Assembly: GCA_019744895.1 (NCBI GenBank)
Contig: JAIETV010000003.1
Span: 1-64,000 of the forward strand
Length of the DNA: 64,000 nt
Direction of reading: 5' to 3'
DNA from: Candidatus Babeliaceae bacterium
GTDB taxonomy: Bacteria > Babelota > Babeliae > Babelales > Babelaceae
Of the stretch, positions 53,915-63,373 are shown in pieces (position 1 is the first letter of the stretch; every line of letters begins with the position of its first letter). A program made the position numbers and the translations under genes. Below the pieces are notes generated by a model. It was not told where the DNA came from. It did no database searches and was given only the letters and a program-made list of their open reading frames with translations.

Positions 53915-55909
53915 TTATTTAAGCGCTACAAGCAATAATGCAACCATAGACATAAGCTTAATAAGAATATTCAGAGCTGGGCCGGATGTATCTTTAAATG
54001 GGTCGCCTACCGTATCACCAATAACCGCTGCGCGATGCGCTTCTGAGCCTTTGCCACCAAAATGCCCGGCTTCGATGTATTTTTTTGCATTGTCCCATGC
54101 GCCACCACCATTTGCCATCATTAATGCAAGAGCAATGCCACACACGGTTGCGCCAACCAAAAGACCCCCAAGCACTTGAACACCCGATGTGAATCCAAAT
54201 ATAAATCTAATTAACACAGGAACTGCAACAGTGATAAAGCCGGGTAAAATCATTTCACGCAACGAAGCTTTTGTGCTGATTGCAATACAACGTTCGTAAT
54301 CAGGCTTTGCCGTGCCCTCCATAAGGCCAGGTATTTCTCTAAATTGACGGCGTACCTCAACAACCATTTTAAGTGCTGCATCACCTACTGAACGCATGGT
54401 AAGTGCAGAAATCCAAAATGGCATAGCAGCGCCAACAAATATACCTGAAAGCACAAGTGGATTAAGAAGATCAAGGACTGAAATGCCGGCTTCAAACTTG
54501 AATACTGCAAAGACGCTTAATGCCGCAAGAGCTGCAGAACCGATAGCAAAACCCTTTCCGATTGCCGCAGTAGTATTACCTAATGAATCTAACTTATCAG
54601 TAATGGCACGCACATTTTTACCAAATGCTGCCATTTCTGCAATACCGCCAGCGTTATCTGCAATAGGGCCGTATGCATCAACAGTCATAGTAATGCCAAC
54701 TGTTGCAAGCATAGCAACTGCTGCAAGAGACACGCCAAAAACGCCGCCGCCGTAAGTAAATGCGCAAACTACGCTGCAAGCCAAGAAAATCATGGGTAAT
54801 ACCACAGATTCCATGCCAACAGATAATCCATAAATAATATTTGTTGCAGCACCCGATTCTGAAATTTTTGCCAATCTTGCAATAGGCGTTGAAGATGTAT
54901 AATATTCGGTAATAAGACCGATTACTACACCACTCACGCAACCGATAACCAACGACGTGTATAATTCAAAATCAATACTCATTGCACTCATATAATAAGC
55001 GGTTGACGCAAGAAAAATAGCAAGCGCTACATACGTTGAATTACGCAATAATGTCGCGGAACTGCTTTTCAAAACTAATACAGAAAGAAGGCCAACCAAT
55101 GAGCTGAATAATCCCATTACACAAACCATTAACGGAAAAGTAACATATTCGGTTAAGCCAGCATATTTTTCTGAAGATATGGCAAGTAAAATAGATGATA
55201 TCATTGCAGTAACATATGATTCAAAAATATCTGCGCCCATGCCTGCCGTATCGCCCACACAGTCACCCACGTTGTCAGCAATAACTGCCGGGTTGCGAGG
55301 ATCGTCTTCAGGAATATTCGCTTCGAGTTTACCAACAAGATCTGCCCCAACATCAGCAGACTTAGTGTAAATACCGCCACCAACACGGGCAAAAAATGCT
55401 ACAAGAGAGGCACCTACGCCGAATGCGGTAAATAGTACCGGGAAGTTAGGCATATGAAGCATAAAATAGAGCACGCCAGCAACACCAATTACTCCAAAAC
55501 TTGCAACGGTAATACCCATGACTCCGCCACCAAAGAACGCTACTAAAAATGCTGAACGCTCGCCATGATTTTTTGCAGCAATAGCAGTGCGTACGTTTGC
55601 TTGCGTGGCCGCATGCATACCAATAAGGCCTGTCAAAAGTGAAAGAAATGAGCCGGACAAGAAGCATAAAGCTGCCGTAAGACCGCTTATAGCTACCAAA
55701 AGGGCTGAAATAAGAGCAATAACAAGTCCTATAATGGTATATTCCTCTTTTAAAAAGGTCATTGCGCCCAAGCGAATAGCACAAGAAATATCGTATGCTT
55801 TTTTGTCGTCAACTTTAAGAGCCATAATGTAGTAGAGAAGCAACCCTACTGCACCTAAGCCGGCAAAACCGCTAATGAGCGCCCACATCGGGGCCATTAA
55901 TTCCGTCAT
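53915..55909 (-). CDS. hppA: Membrane-bound ion-translocating pyrophosphatase
   Basis: 664 residues, about 15 membrane segments. PPi-binding motifs are [18 protein letters not shown] and [18 protein letters not shown]; the C-terminal motif is [25 protein letters not shown] has Ala where potassium-independent enzymes have Lys, so this is the potassium-dependent type. It uses PPi from biosynthesis to pump protons or sodium. Whether the ion is H+ or Na+ cannot be settled here. It suits an energy-limited lifestyle. Confidence 0.96.
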
Positions 55910-56000
55910 GTATTCTCCGTTATAATTATTATTAGAATATAGTGAGATTTTTAAAAATATCTTTTAGATTAATGGGTTTCACGATTCTTGTAAAGATTAG

Positions 56001-56423
56001 CTAAACGCCACCTATCTCTGAAATCGCCAGCTGAACTGCAGCTAGGGCAAACCCCTGAGCATCTTCCAATAAATAGCGAGCACCCGTATTGTTTTGCTGA
56101 GCAAATTCATGAACTAGTTCACTCAGGGTGGTTTGGCAACCCGCTTTCTTTTTTATTTTTACTAATTGATAAAAACTCTGCACGGCCTTTAAGCGAGCTT
56201 GATATACATTTTTTAGCGAATTGTCATTATTTGGAAATACTAGTTCAAGAGGGCGTCTAGCACCTGCCGGTTCTTTGATATAATCGGCGATCGCATTAAA
56301 ACCCGGGGTCATATTTGCTTTTAACTCATTAAAACGCTTAGCGCAATCAAAGCCCAAACTTCCAGCGTTGACTGTAGATATAAAAAATAAAAAGGTAAAA
56401 AAAATAAACTTATTTTTCACCAA
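56001..56423 (-). CDS. Exported protein, 140 aa
   Basis: Signal peptide MVKNKFIFFTFLFFISTVNA, then a helical mature part with two Cys (FDCAKRF, AGCQTTL) and a basic middle. It starts 7 bases after the AGCS-MurE stop on the same strand, so it may be the last gene of that operon. No family recognised. Confidence 0.65.
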   Translation of the reverse strand: MVKNKFIFFTFLFFISTVNAGSLGFDCAKRFNELKANMTPGFNAIADYIKEPAGARRPLELVFPNNDNSLKNVYQARLKAVQSFYQLVKIKKKAGCQTTLSELVHEFAQQNNTGARYLLEDAQGFALAAVQLAISEIGGV

Positions 56424-56429
56424 TATTCC

Positions 56430-59183
56430 TTAAAGTGAATTGAGAATTTCACGTTCACTAAAATGCTGTTTTTCACCCTGCACAAGCTGGTACTCATCCG
56501 GGCCCTTGCCAAGTAGTGCGATGATGGCGCCCTCTTGAGCAATGGAGTAAGCATATTTAATCGCCTGGGCACGATCATATTCAATATGCACTTTATGCAT
56601 AAGATCTTCAGGAATTCCTGCAAGAATATCCTTCATGATATTTTCTGGATCTTCAGAACGCGGGTTATCTGTTGTTAAAATAACATTCTGCGCATATTCA
56701 ACAGCCAAACCGCCCATAAATGGTCGCTTAACTGGATCCCGATCTCCGCCTGCACCGAATACCACAATAAGCTGTTTGGTTTCACCTTGTAATGTTGAAA
56801 GCACCGCTTTCATAGAAGATGGAGTATGTGCGTAATCGATGTAAGCAACAATATCGCGGGCAAGTTTATATTTATTAAGGCGACCCGGAACGCCCTTAAA
56901 TGAATAGACAGCCTGTTGTAAAATTTCAGGCAAAATTCCTATAGAACGTCCAAAAAGATACGCCATATGAATATTATGAATATTAAAAGTTCCCAATAGA
57001 TGATTATTTTCAAAAACCAGCTGATCTATATAGCAGCTTACGCCTGCACTTGATGAGCCGATTATAGAAATATCATTAAGGCTACTTAATTGAGCATCTA
57101 GACAAAGAGAGCGCAATGAGCTCACCAGCGAATCATCTCCATTTAAAATGACAATACCATTTTTTTTAAGCTGTTTAAAAATAGAAACTTTTGCAGCAAA
57201 ATAATCTTGTTGTGTTGGATAGAATTCTGCATGCTCTTGACTAAAATTTGTGAAAATAATTGCATCGAATTCAATGCCATGCACACGATGCAAACTCAAT
57301 GCTTGCGCAGCAACTTCGATCACTACCCACTCAACTCCTTGCTGAACAGATTCATGCAAGAACATATGAATATAATCTGGCTGTTGCGTTGTTAACTCGG
57401 TTTGGTATTCATGAGAAAGTATCGCATTGCACACAGTGCTCAGGCGAGCGGTTTTAAAGCCTGCCGTTTTTAGCATATGTTCAAGTAAATAAGTTGTAGT
57501 GGTCTTGCCTTTTGTTCCTGTTACTGCAATACATTTTAATTTTTTTGCAGGATAATTATACGCATGCGCACTTAATTCAGCAAGAGCTTTGCGGGTGTTT
57601 TCTACACGATAACTAGAGATTTTTGATAGAGCATGCTGCATGTCTTTTGAAACATGCGCTTTTTGATCTAAAACTATTGTTGTTGAACCACGCTTAAGAG
57701 CTTCTGATATAAATTCAGTGCCATCCTTTCTTGTTCCTGGAATAGCAACAAATGTTGACCCAGGGCCCACATTATTAGTATGAGCAGCAACTTTATACCG
57801 AGCTGGCAAGTTCTTAACTGATTCACTCTGGTTCTTAACAAGAAGCCTATTTTTTTTTTCGTCTTGATTAAAGGCTCTTACGATGAGTGGCAGCAGCATC
57901 ATTAAGCCATAAATATTCATAATGAGCATGCCGGCGTTTGCGATATCAACAGCACTCCAAACCACTGCAGCGGCACTAAATACCCCGAAAAACGACATGC
58001 ATGCATATATAAACGTATACCATTGTGTTGACACATGTGGCATTAAAAAAAGCCAGCATTCGCGGCCAATATAGGCATATGCAACTAAAACACCAAGACC
58101 GAATGAGATAGATAAAAAGGTTACAATAATTTTTCCATAGACGCCAAACAATGTTTCAAAGGCAGCACTTGTTAGGGCGGTACTTGTAAGGCCACTGTCC
58201 CAGACACCACTTGCAACGAAAATCAGTAATAATAAACAACAGACAAGATGATTACTTATCATGATCGAAGCCATGGACATAACACTGTTTTTAAAAGGCT
58301 CTTTGCCGCCGGTTGACCCGAATAAGATGCCTGCCGTACCAAGACCAAGCTCGGTAGCACTCACCGAGCGTGAAATGCCATAACGCAAAGCCGTCTGCAT
58401 AGTATAGCCCATACTGGCACCGGCAAGTGCTTGCCAGGTAAATGCATATTCCATGATGAGCGTTAAAGCTGCCGGAATAGCTGGTGCGTGATATATCAAA
58501 AGTGCGCCTATACAGATAAAAAACAAACCTACCTTAAGGGGAATAATTTTTTCAGAAAAACTGATGATTCGACGCGATCCACCATATAATACATAGAGCA
58601 TGACCACAAATAAGATGACCGCAATAAGCGGCTTACTAAAACCGGTAAGTCGTTCAATGCCAATCGTCATAGAATTACACTGCATTGCGCAGCCCGCGAC
58701 AAAACTTGTTAATAAACAAAAAAATGCATAAAGTGCGGGCAAAAAAAAGTTGCCTGGGACAAGCTGTAAATAAATCATAGGGCCACCACGAAAGGTTCCC
58801 TGCTTATTTTCATCAATAAAATAGCTGCTTGCATATACCTCAACAAAGCGGAGTGCTATGCCAAAAAAGCCTACTATAAAAATCCAAAAGGCTGCTCCCG
58901 GGCCACCGGAAGCTATAGCAGTTGCCATGCCAGCTGCGCTGCCATTACCCAATGATGCGCTGAGTGTATTTAAAAAAGCCTGTAGTGGCGTTATGTATTC
59001 AGTGCCGGCTTTTGATATGGGCGATGGGTGAAAAACGTAGTACCAAGATTGCCAAAAATAGCGAACTTGCACCCATTTAAAAGCTATTGTCATTATGATG
59101 CTTATTGTTAGCATTCCAATTACTAACGGCCAGCCCCATAAAAAATCACTTATTCTATTAATTGCGTTTTCGATCGTGTACAT
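56430..59183 (-). CDS. Fused AGCS amino-acid:cation symporter and MurE ligase
   Basis: One uninterrupted 917-residue frame. Residues 1-455 form an AGCS-type alanine/glycine:cation symporter (ASLGNGSAAGMATAIASGGP, FRGGPMIY, LGLGTAGILFGSTG) with about ten helices. After a charged linker, residues about 462-917 form a Mur ligase: TGTKGKTTTTYLLEH (ATP loop, Lys560), FTNFSQEHAEFYPTQQDYF, GDRDPVKRPFMG, and DNPRSE (839-844), the motif of meso-diaminopimelate-specific MurE. The N-terminal UDP-binding part is slightly short. Function inferred: cytoplasmic MurE tethered to a symporter. Upstream is a second AGCS paralogue whose end overlaps this start by 26 bases. Confidence 0.9.
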   Translation of the reverse strand: MYTIENAINRISDFLWGWPLVIGMLTISIIMTIAFKWVQVRYFWQSWYYVFHPSPISKAGTEYITPLQAFLNTLSASLGNGSAAGMATAIASGGPGAAFWIFIVGFFGIALRFVEVYASSYFIDENKQGTFRGGPMIYLQLVPGNFFLPALYAFFCLLTSFVAGCAMQCNSMTIGIERLTGFSKPLIAVILFVVMLYVLYGGSRRIISFSEKIIPLKVGLFFICIGALLIYHAPAIPAALTLIMEYAFTWQALAGASMGYTMQTALRYGISRSVSATELGLGTAGILFGSTGGKEPFKNSVMSMASIMISNHLVCCLLLLIFVASGVWDSGLTSTALTSAAFETLFGVYGKIIVTFLSISFGLGVLVAYAYIGRECWLFLMPHVSTQWYTFIYACMSFFGVFSAAAVVWSAVDIANAGMLIMNIYGLMMLLPLIVRAFNQDEKKNRLLVKNQSESVKNLPARYKVAAHTNNVGPGSTFVAIPGTRKDGTEFISEALKRGSTTIVLDQKAHVSKDMQHALSKISSYRVENTRKALAELSAHAYNYPAKKLKCIAVTGTKGKTTTTYLLEHMLKTAGFKTARLSTVCNAILSHEYQTELTTQQPDYIHMFLHESVQQGVEWVVIEVAAQALSLHRVHGIEFDAIIFTNFSQEHAEFYPTQQDYFAAKVSIFKQLKKNGIVILNGDDSLVSSLRSLCLDAQLSSLNDISIIGSSSAGVSCYIDQLVFENNHLLGTFNIHNIHMAYLFGRSIGILPEILQQAVYSFKGVPGRLNKYKLARDIVAYIDYAHTPSSMKAVLSTLQGETKQLIVVFGAGGDRDPVKRPFMGGLAVEYAQNVILTTDNPRSEDPENIMKDILAGIPEDLMHKVHIEYDRAQAIKYAYSIAQEGAIIALLGKGPDEYQLVQGEKQHFSEREILNSL

Positions 59184-60516
59184 AAAAAGCTCGTACCCCT
59201 TTTTGAATTTCTGGCATCAACCACATAAGCCCGTAGAGGTTACTTATAATAAGAGCCGCATTAACAACATCTATAGCATTCCACAATATGCGCACTTCAA
59301 CAAGCGCACCAAAAAGTGCCATGAAACAAAAAATGAGACTATACCAGAAAAGGTATTTTCCGCCTGTTAAGAACGACCAACATTGACGACCAATATACGC
59401 ATAAGCGATTACACAACCAATACCAAACATCATGGCAAGAATATTAACTATCCAGCCGCCAAAAGAACCGAATGTCGTTTCATAGGCTTGAATGGTCATT
59501 CTAATATCACCAAATTCACTCTGCCATGCACCCGTTGCAACAAAAAGCCACATCAAAAGAAAGCAGACGCCAAAATTACTAATCGACGTAGTTGCAAGCG
59601 ATATAATCCCGCTACGAACAGGGCTTGAAGTGCCTGTTGTACCAAAAATAATTCCGGAGGTTCCGACGCCAACCTCTGTAGCATTAATTGAACGAGCAAG
59701 GCCAAAGCGCAATGCCGACTGCATGGTATAGCCGATAAGAGCTCCTCGCGCAGCATGAAGCGTAAAGGCATGCTGAGTCATAATAACAAGTGCGCCCCAA
59801 AGTGAATTAATATTAGTGAATAAAACCAACAGTGTTGCAACAAAAAAAAGTCCTACTTTTATTGGTGTTATTGCATCAGAAACCTTTATGATGCGCTGGG
59901 CACCCCCGACCATGATATAGAGTAAAAATAAAAACATTACTGCTGCAATGGCATAAATATTCCATGCAGTCATTTTTTCTAAGCCCAAAGCAATAGAATT
60001 GCATTGCATAGCATTACCGGTAACAAAAGTTAACATCAAACAAAAAAAAGCATAAAAATACGGCAGCCATGACCCACCTGGCACGCGAGCAAGATAGACC
60101 ATAGGGCCACCACGCATTAAGCCACCCGCCTGCTTTTCTGTGAATGCGGTACTTGCATATACTTCAGCAAAACGAATTGCCATCAAGAAAAACCCGAGAA
60201 AAAAGATCCAAAATCCTGCGCCTGGCCCGCCGCTATACATAGCGGTTGCCATACCCGCAAGACTTCCGTTGCCCAAAGATGCACTTAGCGCATTAATAAA
60301 CGCCTGAAATGGCGTAATATAGTTTTCGCGGGCTTCAGCTTGAGCACTTTCTGCTTTTAACAAATACTGCCATGACCGCATAAAATATCTAAATTGAATA
60401 CCACCAAAAGCAAACGTCATAATAAAGCTAACACCCATGATGCTAATAATAAGAGGCCAGCCCCATAAAAAACCGCCTAAATTTTTAATCAATTCATCTA
60501 ACTCTACATAAGTCAT
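59158..60516 (-). CDS. AGCS amino-acid:cation symporter
   Basis: 452 residues, full length for the alanine/glycine:cation symporter family. Closely parallels residues 1-455 of the fused protein: GFLWGWPLIISIMGVSFIMT, ASLGNGSLAGMATAMYSGGP, RGGPMVYLARVPGG, VGVGTSGIIFGTTG. It imports alanine, glycine or a related amino acid with Na+ or H+; the exact substrate is unknown. Clearly a tandem duplicate of the upstream transporter domain. It overlaps the fusion gene, so they are co-transcribed. Confidence 0.94.
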   Translation of the reverse strand: MTYVELDELIKNLGGFLWGWPLIISIMGVSFIMTFAFGGIQFRYFMRSWQYLLKAESAQAEARENYITPFQAFINALSASLGNGSLAGMATAMYSGGPGAGFWIFFLGFFLMAIRFAEVYASTAFTEKQAGGLMRGGPMVYLARVPGGSWLPYFYAFFCLMLTFVTGNAMQCNSIALGLEKMTAWNIYAIAAVMFLFLLYIMVGGAQRIIKVSDAITPIKVGLFFVATLLVLFTNINSLWGALVIMTQHAFTLHAARGALIGYTMQSALRFGLARSINATEVGVGTSGIIFGTTGTSSPVRSGIISLATTSISNFGVCFLLMWLFVATGAWQSEFGDIRMTIQAYETTFGSFGGWIVNILAMMFGIGCVIAYAYIGRQCWSFLTGGKYLFWYSLIFCFMALFGALVEVRILWNAIDVVNAALIISNLYGLMWLMPEIQKGVRAFYVHDRKRN

Positions 60517-60534
60517 GCTAATCTCCTATACCTT

Positions 60535-60553
60535 TGTATCTCTTTAAGATACA
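60535..60553. other. Inverted repeat in a divergent intergenic region
   Basis: Perfect 7-bp arms TGTATCT / AGATACA around CTTTA, between the divergent AGCS and yqgF genes. It could be a small operator; no regulator is evident nearby. Confidence 0.3.
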
Positions 60554-60613
60554 CTCTATTTAAACGATTTTGGTAACAAGTACCATAAGTTTTAATTATA
60601 GAAGAATACCGCT

Positions 60614-61051
60614 ATGTTGACAAACAAACCTCTTAATCTGCCAGCTGGAAAAATTGCTGCTCTTGATTTGGGCGACCAATGGGTCGGCATCGCATTATCT
60701 GACAGCACACGTACATTGGCAAAACCATTTACCACCATAACGTTTCACGAGTATTTGCCGGCTTTAAGAAAATTCATTGAAGAACAAAAGCCTGCAGCTA
60801 TTGTTATTGGGTACCCAAAGACGATGCGTGGCACAGAAAGCGATCAGACAAAAAAAGTGATCGCACTTCATGAAGACCTTCAGAAGGAGTTTCCTGAAAC
60901 TCTATTTGTTTTGTGGGACGAGCGCTTAAGCAGCAAGCGCGCACAAAGCGCTAGCCCGGCTCGCACTAAAGAAGAAAAATTAAAATCACATGCTATTGCA
61001 GCAGCTTTTATCCTGGATTCGTATTTACAATTTTTGAGCTATCATGCATAA
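60614..61051 (+). CDS. ruvX: YqgF/RuvX-family nuclease
   Basis: 145 residues. AALDLGDQWVGIALSD, VIGYPKTMRGTESDQTKKV and LWDERLSSKRAQ match the YqgF family (putative pre-16S rRNA processing nuclease / Holliday junction resolvase). The acidic residues in DLGD and WDER that line the active site are present. Cytoplasmic. Its last 8 bases overlap the next gene. No Shine-Dalgarno sequence is seen. Confidence 0.93.
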   Translation: MLTNKPLNLPAGKIAALDLGDQWVGIALSDSTRTLAKPFTTITFHEYLPALRKFIEEQKPAAIVIGYPKTMRGTESDQTKKVIALHEDLQKEFPETLFVLWDERLSSKRAQSASPARTKEEKLKSHAIAAAFILDSYLQFLSYHA

Positions 61052-61490
61052 ATTTTTTTTAACCCGTCTATCACTAATTATTACAATAGTAATTGCATCA
61101 TCAAGTTTTTTTATTAACTGCATGGAAAAAAGTAGGGAAGCAGATCGTAAAAGTAAATATAGAACAAAGTGTTATCAAGAATTTTGCAAAATAAAAAACC
61201 CTGAAGCTTTCCAAAAAATTTTAAAGGAAACGGGTGTTGATCAGCAAGATCTGCAACACGCTTTTAGGCTTTATGCCATAAACTGCAGCGGTAAACTTCC
61301 TATAACTAAAGAACGCATAATTCAATTGGCTGAAAGATATCGAGAAATACTTGCTTATGATCAAAAAAGAAAAGAAAAGTCTCGAGCAGCGCCTAAACGC
61401 GCCACCTCCAACGAGATCCAAGAGCCTGACGTTGGTAAAACGTCTAGGCCTCAAACTGATAAAATGAGTGTCCCTTATCTGTTAAATTAA
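61044..61490 (+). CDS. Exported protein with one repeat unit, 148 aa
   Basis: Signal peptide residues 5-25 (LTRLSLIITIVIASSSFF). One copy of the repeat unit is seen at about 58-103: KILKETGVDQQDLQHAFRLY, then LPITKERIIQLAERYREIL, the same unit that occurs four times in the gene at 62270. The tail (PQTDKM...PYLLN) is shared with the gene at 61629. Basic, Lys/Arg-rich in the C-terminal half. No family recognised. Confidence 0.75.
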   Translation: MHKFFLTRLSLIITIVIASSSFFINCMEKSREADRKSKYRTKCYQEFCKIKNPEAFQKILKETGVDQQDLQHAFRLYAINCSGKLPITKERIIQLAERYREILAYDQKRKEKSRAAPKRATSNEIQEPDVGKTSRPQTDKMSVPYLLN

Positions 61491-61716
61491 ATTCAACTAT
61501 CACCCCATGTCGTTAAATTATTTTTAAAAGCAGCTAAAAAATACAACTTATCGACAATAAATTTCTGAGTTAGATAGAATACTATTTAGAAAAAAGTATA
61601 TATTATTATATTTAAAAAAAAAGATATCATGGTAGGATACTCTATAAAACGTATATACTCAACTGCACTGCTTGCAATAACTATGGCCCCTTTATTACTC
61701 ACGTGCAGTGAAGCGT
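61449..61716 (+). repeat. Repeated cassette, copy 1
   Basis: Runs from the last 40 bases of one gene (CCTCAAACT.ATAAAATG, then YLLN-coding end), through the AT-rich spacer, the promoter-like block and the first 25-30 codons of the next gene (MVGYSIKRIYSTALLAIT). The signal-peptide and promoter parts match copy 2 at about 90 per cent by eye; the spacer part is more diverged. Confidence 0.7.
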
Positions 61717-62132
61717 CTCCCTTTGATGGACTAGATAAACTAGATGATGATGCTATGCAAGGCTCTTCATCCACTGCAGGATCATCTTCAGCTCAGCAAG
61801 AATTACCTGATTATTATGATGACGATGAGATTACCGTTGCAAAAGCTCTACTGGAATTTAGAAACATATCAAAGGTAGCTCAAAAAGATTATCGTAAACG
61901 CTATGAAAAATTATTGAATCTAGCTAAAAAAAACGAAGAAAGAATTAAAATTGCTGAAATAAAATTTGTTCAAGATCGATTGCGTGAAGCTACTGAAAAC
62001 CGTCGCGAGTATGAAAGAGCTAGAAAAGAAAGATATCGTAAAAAGGTTCGTGAGGCTCGTCAGGTAGCTTTTGCTAGAGCAGTATCTACGCCTCAAACTA
62101 ATAAAATGCAAATCAATTATCTATTAAATTAA
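61629..62132 (+). CDS. Exported Lys/Arg-rich helical protein, 167 aa
   Basis: N-terminus MVGYSIKRIYSTALLAIT is almost identical to that of the gene at 62270 (signal peptide, then an acidic Ser-rich linker). The body is a single charged helical stretch (KKNEERIKIAEIKFVQD) without the repeat unit of the neighbouring genes. The tail NYLLN resembles the end of the gene at 61044. It looks like a chimera of its two neighbours. Secreted; function unknown. Confidence 0.75.
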   Translation: MVGYSIKRIYSTALLAITMAPLLLTCSEASPFDGLDKLDDDAMQGSSSTAGSSSAQQELPDYYDDDEITVAKALLEFRNISKVAQKDYRKRYEKLLNLAKKNEERIKIAEIKFVQDRLREATENRREYERARKERYRKKVREARQVAFARAVSTPQTNKMQINYLLN

Positions 62133-62355
62133 ATTAAAATTTAAATCAATTTTGTAGCGTATTTTTATTATGGCTTAAAAAATTACAATATATTGACAGT
62201 GAATTTCTGAGTTAAATAGAATACTATTTAGAAAAAAGTATAGATTATTATATTTAAAAAAAGGATATCATGGTAGGTTACTCTATAAAACGTATATACT
62301 CAACTGCACTGCTTGCAATAACTATAGCGCCTTTATTACTCATGTGCGGTGAAGT
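62091..62355 (+). repeat. Repeated cassette, copy 2
   Basis: Second copy of the element at 61449-61716, with the same order: gene end, spacer, TTGACA at 62193-62198 with TAGAAT at 62217-62222 (18-base spacer), ATG and signal-peptide codons. Direct orientation. Confidence 0.7.
62193..62222 (+). promoter_or_regulatory. Promoter inside the repeated cassette
   Basis: TTGACA, 18-base spacer, TAGAAT. Copy 1 has TCGACA and the same TAGAAT, so both downstream genes would be driven by sister promoters. Confidence 0.5.
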
Positions 62356-63373
62356 GCCTTACGCTGATATGCAAGATGAATATGCTATGCAAGGCTCTTC
62401 ATCAACTGTAGAACCATCTTCAGATCAAGAAGAACTGCATGATGCTGATACGGAAATAATTGGAGCTGCAAACGTTCTACTGGGATTTAAAGGCACGTCA
62501 GTCGAAACTATAGCCCAACAAAGGGGCTTATCTGATCAAACAGTGGCTCAAGCAGTTTTATATATATCAGAAAACCCCGAAACACCACTACCCTCAACGA
62601 ATGTATCATATACGGCAGAGCAAATTACGCAAGCGGCTAGAAATTGGGTTGAAAGAAAAGCTATAAGAGTTCAGCAACTTGCTCAATTAGATAAAAATAA
62701 AATCTTACGCGATACAGGTGTTAGTAAAAAAGAGCTAGATCAAGCGTTCGCTTATTATCGTCATTATTCTGCAGGCGCGCTCCCTACTACACGTAAACGA
62801 ATACAAGAGCTTGCTAGAATGTATCAGAATAAATTGCAAAGACACAAAAATTACCTAGCACGTAATAAAGCAGAATTTGCCAAGATAGATACAGAAGAAA
62901 AAATAAAAGAAATCGCGCAGCGTGAGGGAGTAGATGAAAAAATAGTTAGAAAAGCGTTTATTCAGTATCGTAGAAATTCTGGTGGCGAGCCCCCTATAAC
63001 ACGTGAACGGATACAAGAGCTTGCTAGAATGTATGATGAAGATCTTGCCCTGCATAGCGAAAGACGTAAGTTCAATAAAGCAGATTTTGCCAAAATAGAT
63101 ACCCCTCAAGAAAGACAAGCCATAGCTGAGCGTGAAGGGATATCTCTACAAGAGGTTGAAAAAGCATTTGCGTATTATCGTATTTATCCTAATGGTCCGC
63201 TTCCTACTACACGTGAACGGATACAAGAGCTTGCCAAAAAACGTGATGAGTATCTTAACAAAAATCGTGAAGCTCAAAGACTATCCCGGCAAAGAAAAAG
63301 ACTTGCGGGTAAAGCTTCAACACGCGCAGGCAATTCAGCGCCAAAAACTATGAGCAACTCTGATAACACATGA
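62270..63373 (+). CDS. Exported protein with four repeats of about 66 residues, 367 aa
   Basis: Signal peptide as in 61629, an acidic Ser/Glu-rich linker, then four units: a diverged first one (TIAQQRGLSDQTVAQAVLY) and three clear ones built as short helix, LDQAFAYYRHYSAGALPTTR, RIQELARMYQNKL and a Lys/Arg-rich spacer. Units 2-4 repeat KAFIQYRRNSGGEPPITRER and KAFAYYRIYPNGPLPTTRER. The C-terminus is basic. No family recognised; possible surface, DNA-binding or host-directed protein (speculative). Confidence 0.8.
   Translation: MVGYSIKRIYSTALLAITIAPLLLMCGEVPYADMQDEYAMQGSSSTVEPSSDQEELHDADTEIIGAANVLLGFKGTSVETIAQQRGLSDQTVAQAVLYISENPETPLPSTNVSYTAEQITQAARNWVERKAIRVQQLAQLDKNKILRDTGVSKKELDQAFAYYRHYSAGALPTTRKRIQELARMYQNKLQRHKNYLARNKAEFAKIDTEEKIKEIAQREGVDEKIVRKAFIQYRRNSGGEPPITRERIQELARMYDEDLALHSERRKFNKADFAKIDTPQERQAIAEREGISLQEVEKAFAYYRIYPNGPLPTTRERIQELAKKRDEYLNKNREAQRLSRQRKRLAGKASTRAGNSAPKTMSNSDNT

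Follow-up and report, generated by a model that had tools for sequence, protein, structure and literature searches.

Several fusions of Mur enzymes, which build the bacterial cell wall, are on record, namely MurE-MurF in Bordetella, MurB-MurC, MurG-MurC, MurC-Ddl and MraY-MurG (PMC6420597). The gene described here lies in a 64,000 nt stretch of DNA from a Candidatus Babeliaceae bacterium (contig JAIETV010000003.1, positions 1 to 64,000; hereafter the window). It resembles the known cases in that a Mur ligase shares one chain with a partner encoded by a neighbour, but their partners are wall enzymes, whereas here the partner is a solute transporter of the AGCS family, so that the two parts are not both wall enzymes. 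No Mur fusion with a solute transporter was found in PMC6420597 or in the other literature searched. Within the phylum, a complete mur pathway is described for Chromulinavorax (PMC6561590) and its absence for Babela massiliensis (PMC4378268), and the available parts of these two accounts do not mention a transporter-MurE fusion. A sequence-only reading of the window had called the architecture undescribed, and the literature searched agrees: both halves come from known families, and what is new, as far as these sources go, is that they are joined.

The fused gene is a single stop-free frame of 917 codons on the minus strand, in which a short linker joins a complete AGCS transporter to a complete MurE. 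By its gene content, the organism resembles the Babelota/Dependentiae. We compared the gene across 101 genomes of the phylum, where G000 is the present genome and G001 and G002 are other species of the same genus. The features are as follows.

56430..59183, minus strand: fused AGCS-MurE gene, 917 codons plus stop, with Pfam and NCBIfam matches; same fusion in G001 and G002
57840..59183, minus strand: AGCS-type transporter half, residues 1-448; PF01235, similar to 6cse in sequence and fold; 11 predicted transmembrane helices, C-terminus predicted inside
57786..57875, minus strand: linker region, residues 437-466; length and sequence vary among the three species, and the structural model is weakest at 451-456
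57850..57859, minus strand: run of ten A in the linker (T on the plus strand), absent from the G001 and G002 linkers
57807..57809, minus strand: in-frame TTG, residue 459, where free-standing MurE proteins begin; TTG in G001, ATG in G002
56433..57791, minus strand: MurE half, residues 465-917; TIGR01085 at 402.6 bits, similar to 1e8c in fold
57501..57521, minus strand: ATP loop TGTKGKT, residues 555-561, with Lys560 (motif)
57300..57317, minus strand: EVAAQA, residues 623-628; EVSSHA form in dapF-type MurE and in M. tuberculosis MurE
56658..56669, minus strand: DNPR, residues 839-842 (motif)
56487..56510, minus strand: GKGPDEYQ, residues 892-899, where canonical MurE has GKGHE
59158..60516, minus strand: AGCS gene standing by itself, a tandem paralogue (49 % identity) of the AGCS in the fusion; 26 nt overlap with the fused gene

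The MurE half exceeded the curated cut-off for murE (TIGR01085 on residues 465-915, cut-off 257.3 bits) and carries the N, M and C domains of Mur ligases at residues 471-542, 554-742 and 767-894, the ATP loop and the DNPR motif, the last also kept in the fusions of G001 and G002. In the transporter half, PF01235 (sodium:alanine symporter family) matches the whole domain, from residue 60 to 445 (E 1.8e-68), and the predicted fold is that of AgcS; the agcS model TIGR00835 scored 262.9 bits, narrowly below its cut-off of 272.65. The single 917-residue frame, the intact ATP loop at Lys560 and the DNPR motif were all part of the sequence-only reading and were borne out. A second complete murE, which would have cast doubt on that reading, was not found in this genome (94.9 % complete), and the fused gene is its sole murE.

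We are almost certain that the fusion is genuine. A sequencing or assembly artefact in the linker, where an error in the run of ten A would matter, is highly improbable, because the two other species, known from separate metagenome-assembled genomes, carry the identical architecture (76 % and 71 % identity to the G000 fusion) with linkers of other lengths and no homopolymer run, and the frame is kept in all three. At the level of the genus the artefact is refuted. The frame of the linker and the presence of the fusion elsewhere in the lineage had both been named earlier as points to check. Synonymous sites are saturated among the three fusions (dS about 2-4, or not computable), whereas dN stays at 0.15-0.17 for the AGCS half and at 0.18-0.26 for the MurE half. 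With dN far below dS, both halves are, judging from their codons, under purifying selection, and the gene is one continuous frame maintained by selection in three species. Among the 101 genomes, the fusion is restricted to these three, which belong to a genus of tiny, probably host-dependent bacteria. Long open-frame counts had hinted at independent fusions in G094 and G077, but stops separate the genes there.

The origin of the fusion could be traced to a gene pair. A same-strand AGCS gene stands ahead of murE in 56 other genomes. For 49 of these, no more than 100 nt separate the AGCS stop from the aligned start of MurE, and several relatives have the two genes overlapping by 4-23 nt. In the tree, the AGCS proteins linked to murE form a single clade, here named AGCS-A, apart from the sampled unlinked AGCS proteins. 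Bit scores against the fused AGCS separate the two sets as well, with whole AGCS-A proteins above 270 and other AGCS below 170. The fusion derives from separate, adjacent and often overlapping AGCS-A and murE genes. From such overlaps, one small indel or the loss of a stop gives a fusion, which favours a neutral or purely spatial event, in which MurE works normally on the membrane and the transporter carries a substrate such as alanine or glycine without any special tie to MurE. We take this explanation seriously, although we rate it somewhat below an even chance. It is opposed by the order of AGCS-A and murE, which is conserved across about a dozen families, by the retention of the fusion in three species despite saturated synonymous divergence, and by the distinct active site of the AGCS-linked MurE (see below). 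Gene fusions in general are, moreover, a good indication that their parts are functionally coupled.

Within the clade of their own family, the two AGCS copies of the genus, one fused and one separate, form two branches, so they arose by tandem duplication. The sequence-only reading had proposed that the neighbouring copy allows the fused one to specialise. Columns conserved in AGCS-A contradict this: only one of the 56 is changed in the fused copies, against 4-6 of 56 in the separate copies. By this measure it is the separate copy that has drifted, while the fused copy has stayed close to the consensus, and specialisation of the fused copy was ruled out. A second tandem duplication of AGCS-A right before murE, a recent one, in the order AGCS, AGCS, MurE and without fusion, was seen in G090 (locus L097, 2819-6950).

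Regarding the topology, we used a scheme of 11 helices, with anchors placed by hand after the AgcS fold; plain hydropathy alone gives 12 peaks. Under this scheme the sum of lysine and arginine is 16.1 in the inside loops and 2.3 outside, which predicts a cytoplasmic C-terminus. Because of this predicted orientation, MurE is very probably anchored to the membrane on its cytoplasmic side, in line with the earlier suggestion of a membrane anchor for the ligase. The AlphaFold model (mean pLDDT 86.6) shows two folded units, joined by a linker that is weak at residues 451-456; its pTM of 0.57 leaves the relative placement of the units undefined. Foldseek matched the halves to E. coli MurE (1e8c, the best fold match of the MurE half, TM-score 0.84) and to AgcS (6cse, 0.83), both normalised by target length.

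The transporter half shares with AgcS (6cse; PF01235/TIGR00835) the full-length family match and the fold. It differs in belonging to the separate AGCS-A clade, in carrying a ligase and in changes such as T366V, W370Y, N80S and M219K (AgcS numbering). We attempted to name the AGCS-A substrate from residues of the pocket region, but the changes indicate no single substrate. The lysine in transmembrane helix 5, Lys217 of the fusion (window 58533-58535), stands in place of Met219 of AgcS and is conserved in 99 % of AGCS-A. In ApcT, a lysine of transmembrane helix 5 occupies the sodium site, and by analogy AGCS-A may not be sodium-coupled.

We searched the genomes for genes that could supply the third residue of the wall peptide, for which the usual source is the diaminopimelate (DAP) pathway. 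Neither dapA nor dapB was found in any of the 101 genomes, although positive controls were detected; dapF is present in 24 of them but was not found in this genus, and lysA is nearly absent. This settles the check on dap genes that had been raised with the first reading. The sole strong lysA match in the phylum (G025, contig C113, 2286-3443) sits on a separate contig of a genome that is 85 % complete and is possibly contamination. Since murF, mraY and transpeptidases are present alongside the one murE, the wall pathway runs, but the standard route cannot make the usual third residue. With dapA and dapB missing, the residue must therefore be imported or made in another way. The phylum at large appears to lack the means of making it and may depend on uptake of the residue or of its precursors.

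One such way is suggested by Fusobacterium nucleatum, which lacks DAP synthesis and in which the wall lanthionine is made by an enzyme dependent on pyridoxal phosphate (PLP) (PMC11602996, PMC9600241). Its DapF homologue is mainly a histidine racemase, which cautions against inferring function from the name. Shared with the phylum are the lack of DAP synthesis, a PLP enzyme of the beta-replacement type and, in a sister lineage, a DapF homologue. The situation differs in that the enzyme here is cystathionine-beta-synthase-like (CBS-like) instead of CysK1, the genus has no dapF and the transporter is linked to murE. By this analogy, lanthionine is a candidate third residue in the phylum. The CBS-like gene occurs in 92 of the 101 genomes, including this one (C1:209494-210399), and it adjoins dapF in 12 of the 13 dapF loci inspected (L083-L087, L088-L094), despite the missing dapA and dapB, so the two could possibly act as a lanthionine-epimerising pair for the wall. 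The only genomes at least 90 % complete without it, G003 and G034, both also lack a murE match (p 0.0013, a value that rests on these two genomes). G034 (95 % complete) has no match for murE or murF and G003, a single contig, none for murE; the wall has likely been lost or reduced in both.

These observations bear on a further explanation, in which the transporter would import cysteine, serine or another small amino acid, from which the CBS-like enzyme would make lanthionine that MurE then adds. AGCS proteins are known as carriers of small amino acids, and besides the distribution of the CBS-like gene, its joint absence with murE and the F. nucleatum precedent, this explanation is favoured by cysE, for which only weak matches and none above the cut-off were found. 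On the other hand, the CBS-like enzyme falls below every curated cut-off and its nearest relative is not a proven lanthionine synthase, the dapF genomes also have the enzyme yet no AGCS-murE pair, and the joint absence depends on two genomes. We consider this explanation unlikely.

The MurE half shares with canonical MurE (TIGR01085; E. coli 1e8c, M. tuberculosis 2wtz) the three domains, the ATP loop, DNPR and the fold; it differs by the transporter in front and by the changes of SSHAL to AAQAL and of GKGHE to GKGPDE. In the phylum, MurE of the AGCS type mainly has AAQAL and GKGPDEYQ, while most dapF genomes have the canonical SSHAL and GKGHE forms. In S. aureus MurE, Glu-460 on a different loop holds the third residue by its distal amino group (PMC3829189); on one reading this is the glutamate of GKGHE. 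Of the motifs for meso-DAP specificity, the fused MurE has DNPR, but its GKGHE-type loop is replaced by GKGPDE. The earlier assignment as a meso-DAP-specific MurE was correct as to DNPR and too strong as to specificity, given the change in the loop for the distal amino group, and lanthionine is a live alternative to meso-DAP as the substrate.

The two types also differ in gene order. Among the 86 genomes scored, murE is paired with AGCS-A in none of the 20 dapF genomes, against 58 of the 66 without dapF (Fisher p 1.7e-13). The phylum shows two types: dapF beside the CBS-like gene with a mostly canonical MurE, and the transporter beside an altered MurE.

Based on these results, we propose that AGCS-A would import the third amino acid of the stem peptide, or its direct precursor, into cells that lack dapA and dapB. 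With no stop between the halves, a ribosome completing AGCS in frame has to continue into MurE, and the fusion would keep uptake and ligation at one site and in matched amounts; we propose no channelling through the protein. That an importer feeds MurE is plausible. Of the earlier idea that the importer supplies an amino acid to the ligase, the import role is reasonable, because a cell that lacks dapA and dapB cannot obtain the third residue by the usual pathway. A functional tie, in which AGCS-A uptake serves MurE, is supported by the conserved fusion and gene pair, the separate AGCS-A clade, the missing dapA and dapB beside murF, mraY and transpeptidases, the unpaired dapF genomes, the distinct MurE motifs and the predicted topology and fold, and we hold it tentatively, as possible but short of probable. 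Doubtful in its full form is a scavenging short-cut, in which the transporter would draw on the host or bacterial prey for the third residue, be it DAP, lanthionine or another diamino diacid of this kind, and hand it to MurE on its own cytoplasmic tail, tying wall synthesis to uptake at the membrane.

Several observations weigh against the proposal. The AGCS structure that has been solved, AgcS 6cse, binds alanine, which is far smaller than DAP. The MurE tree has only two changes in dapF, which makes the contrast between dapF and AGCS genomes mostly one deep split, and its p-value overstates the support. In G004 and G005 AGCS-A, dapF and murE are all present but apart, and dapF occurs there together with AGCS-type MurE motifs. 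G003 retains AGCS-A with no murE match, and murE is present without a detected AGCS-A in G009-G011, G040 and G076; these cases also speak for the neutral fusion. The fusion suggests a testable answer to the question of where intracellular bacteria without DAP synthesis obtain the third residue of the wall peptide.

The single reading of the frame could be complemented by internal initiation. At the old MurE start, G000 and G001 have TTG and G002 has ATG in homologous positions, and free MurE may also be made from this surviving in-frame start codon, which would give two products and make the fusion partly a by-product. However, no clear ribosome-binding sequence was seen upstream of the codon, TTG also encodes leucine, and ATG is gone in two of the three species; we find the two-product explanation rather improbable.

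An Rfam scan of 55900-61000 gave no match. Elsewhere in the window, 61044-63373 on the plus strand encodes three adjacent small proteins predicted to be secreted, of which two start almost alike (MVGYSIKRIYSTALLAIT...) and two share the ending ...YLLN.
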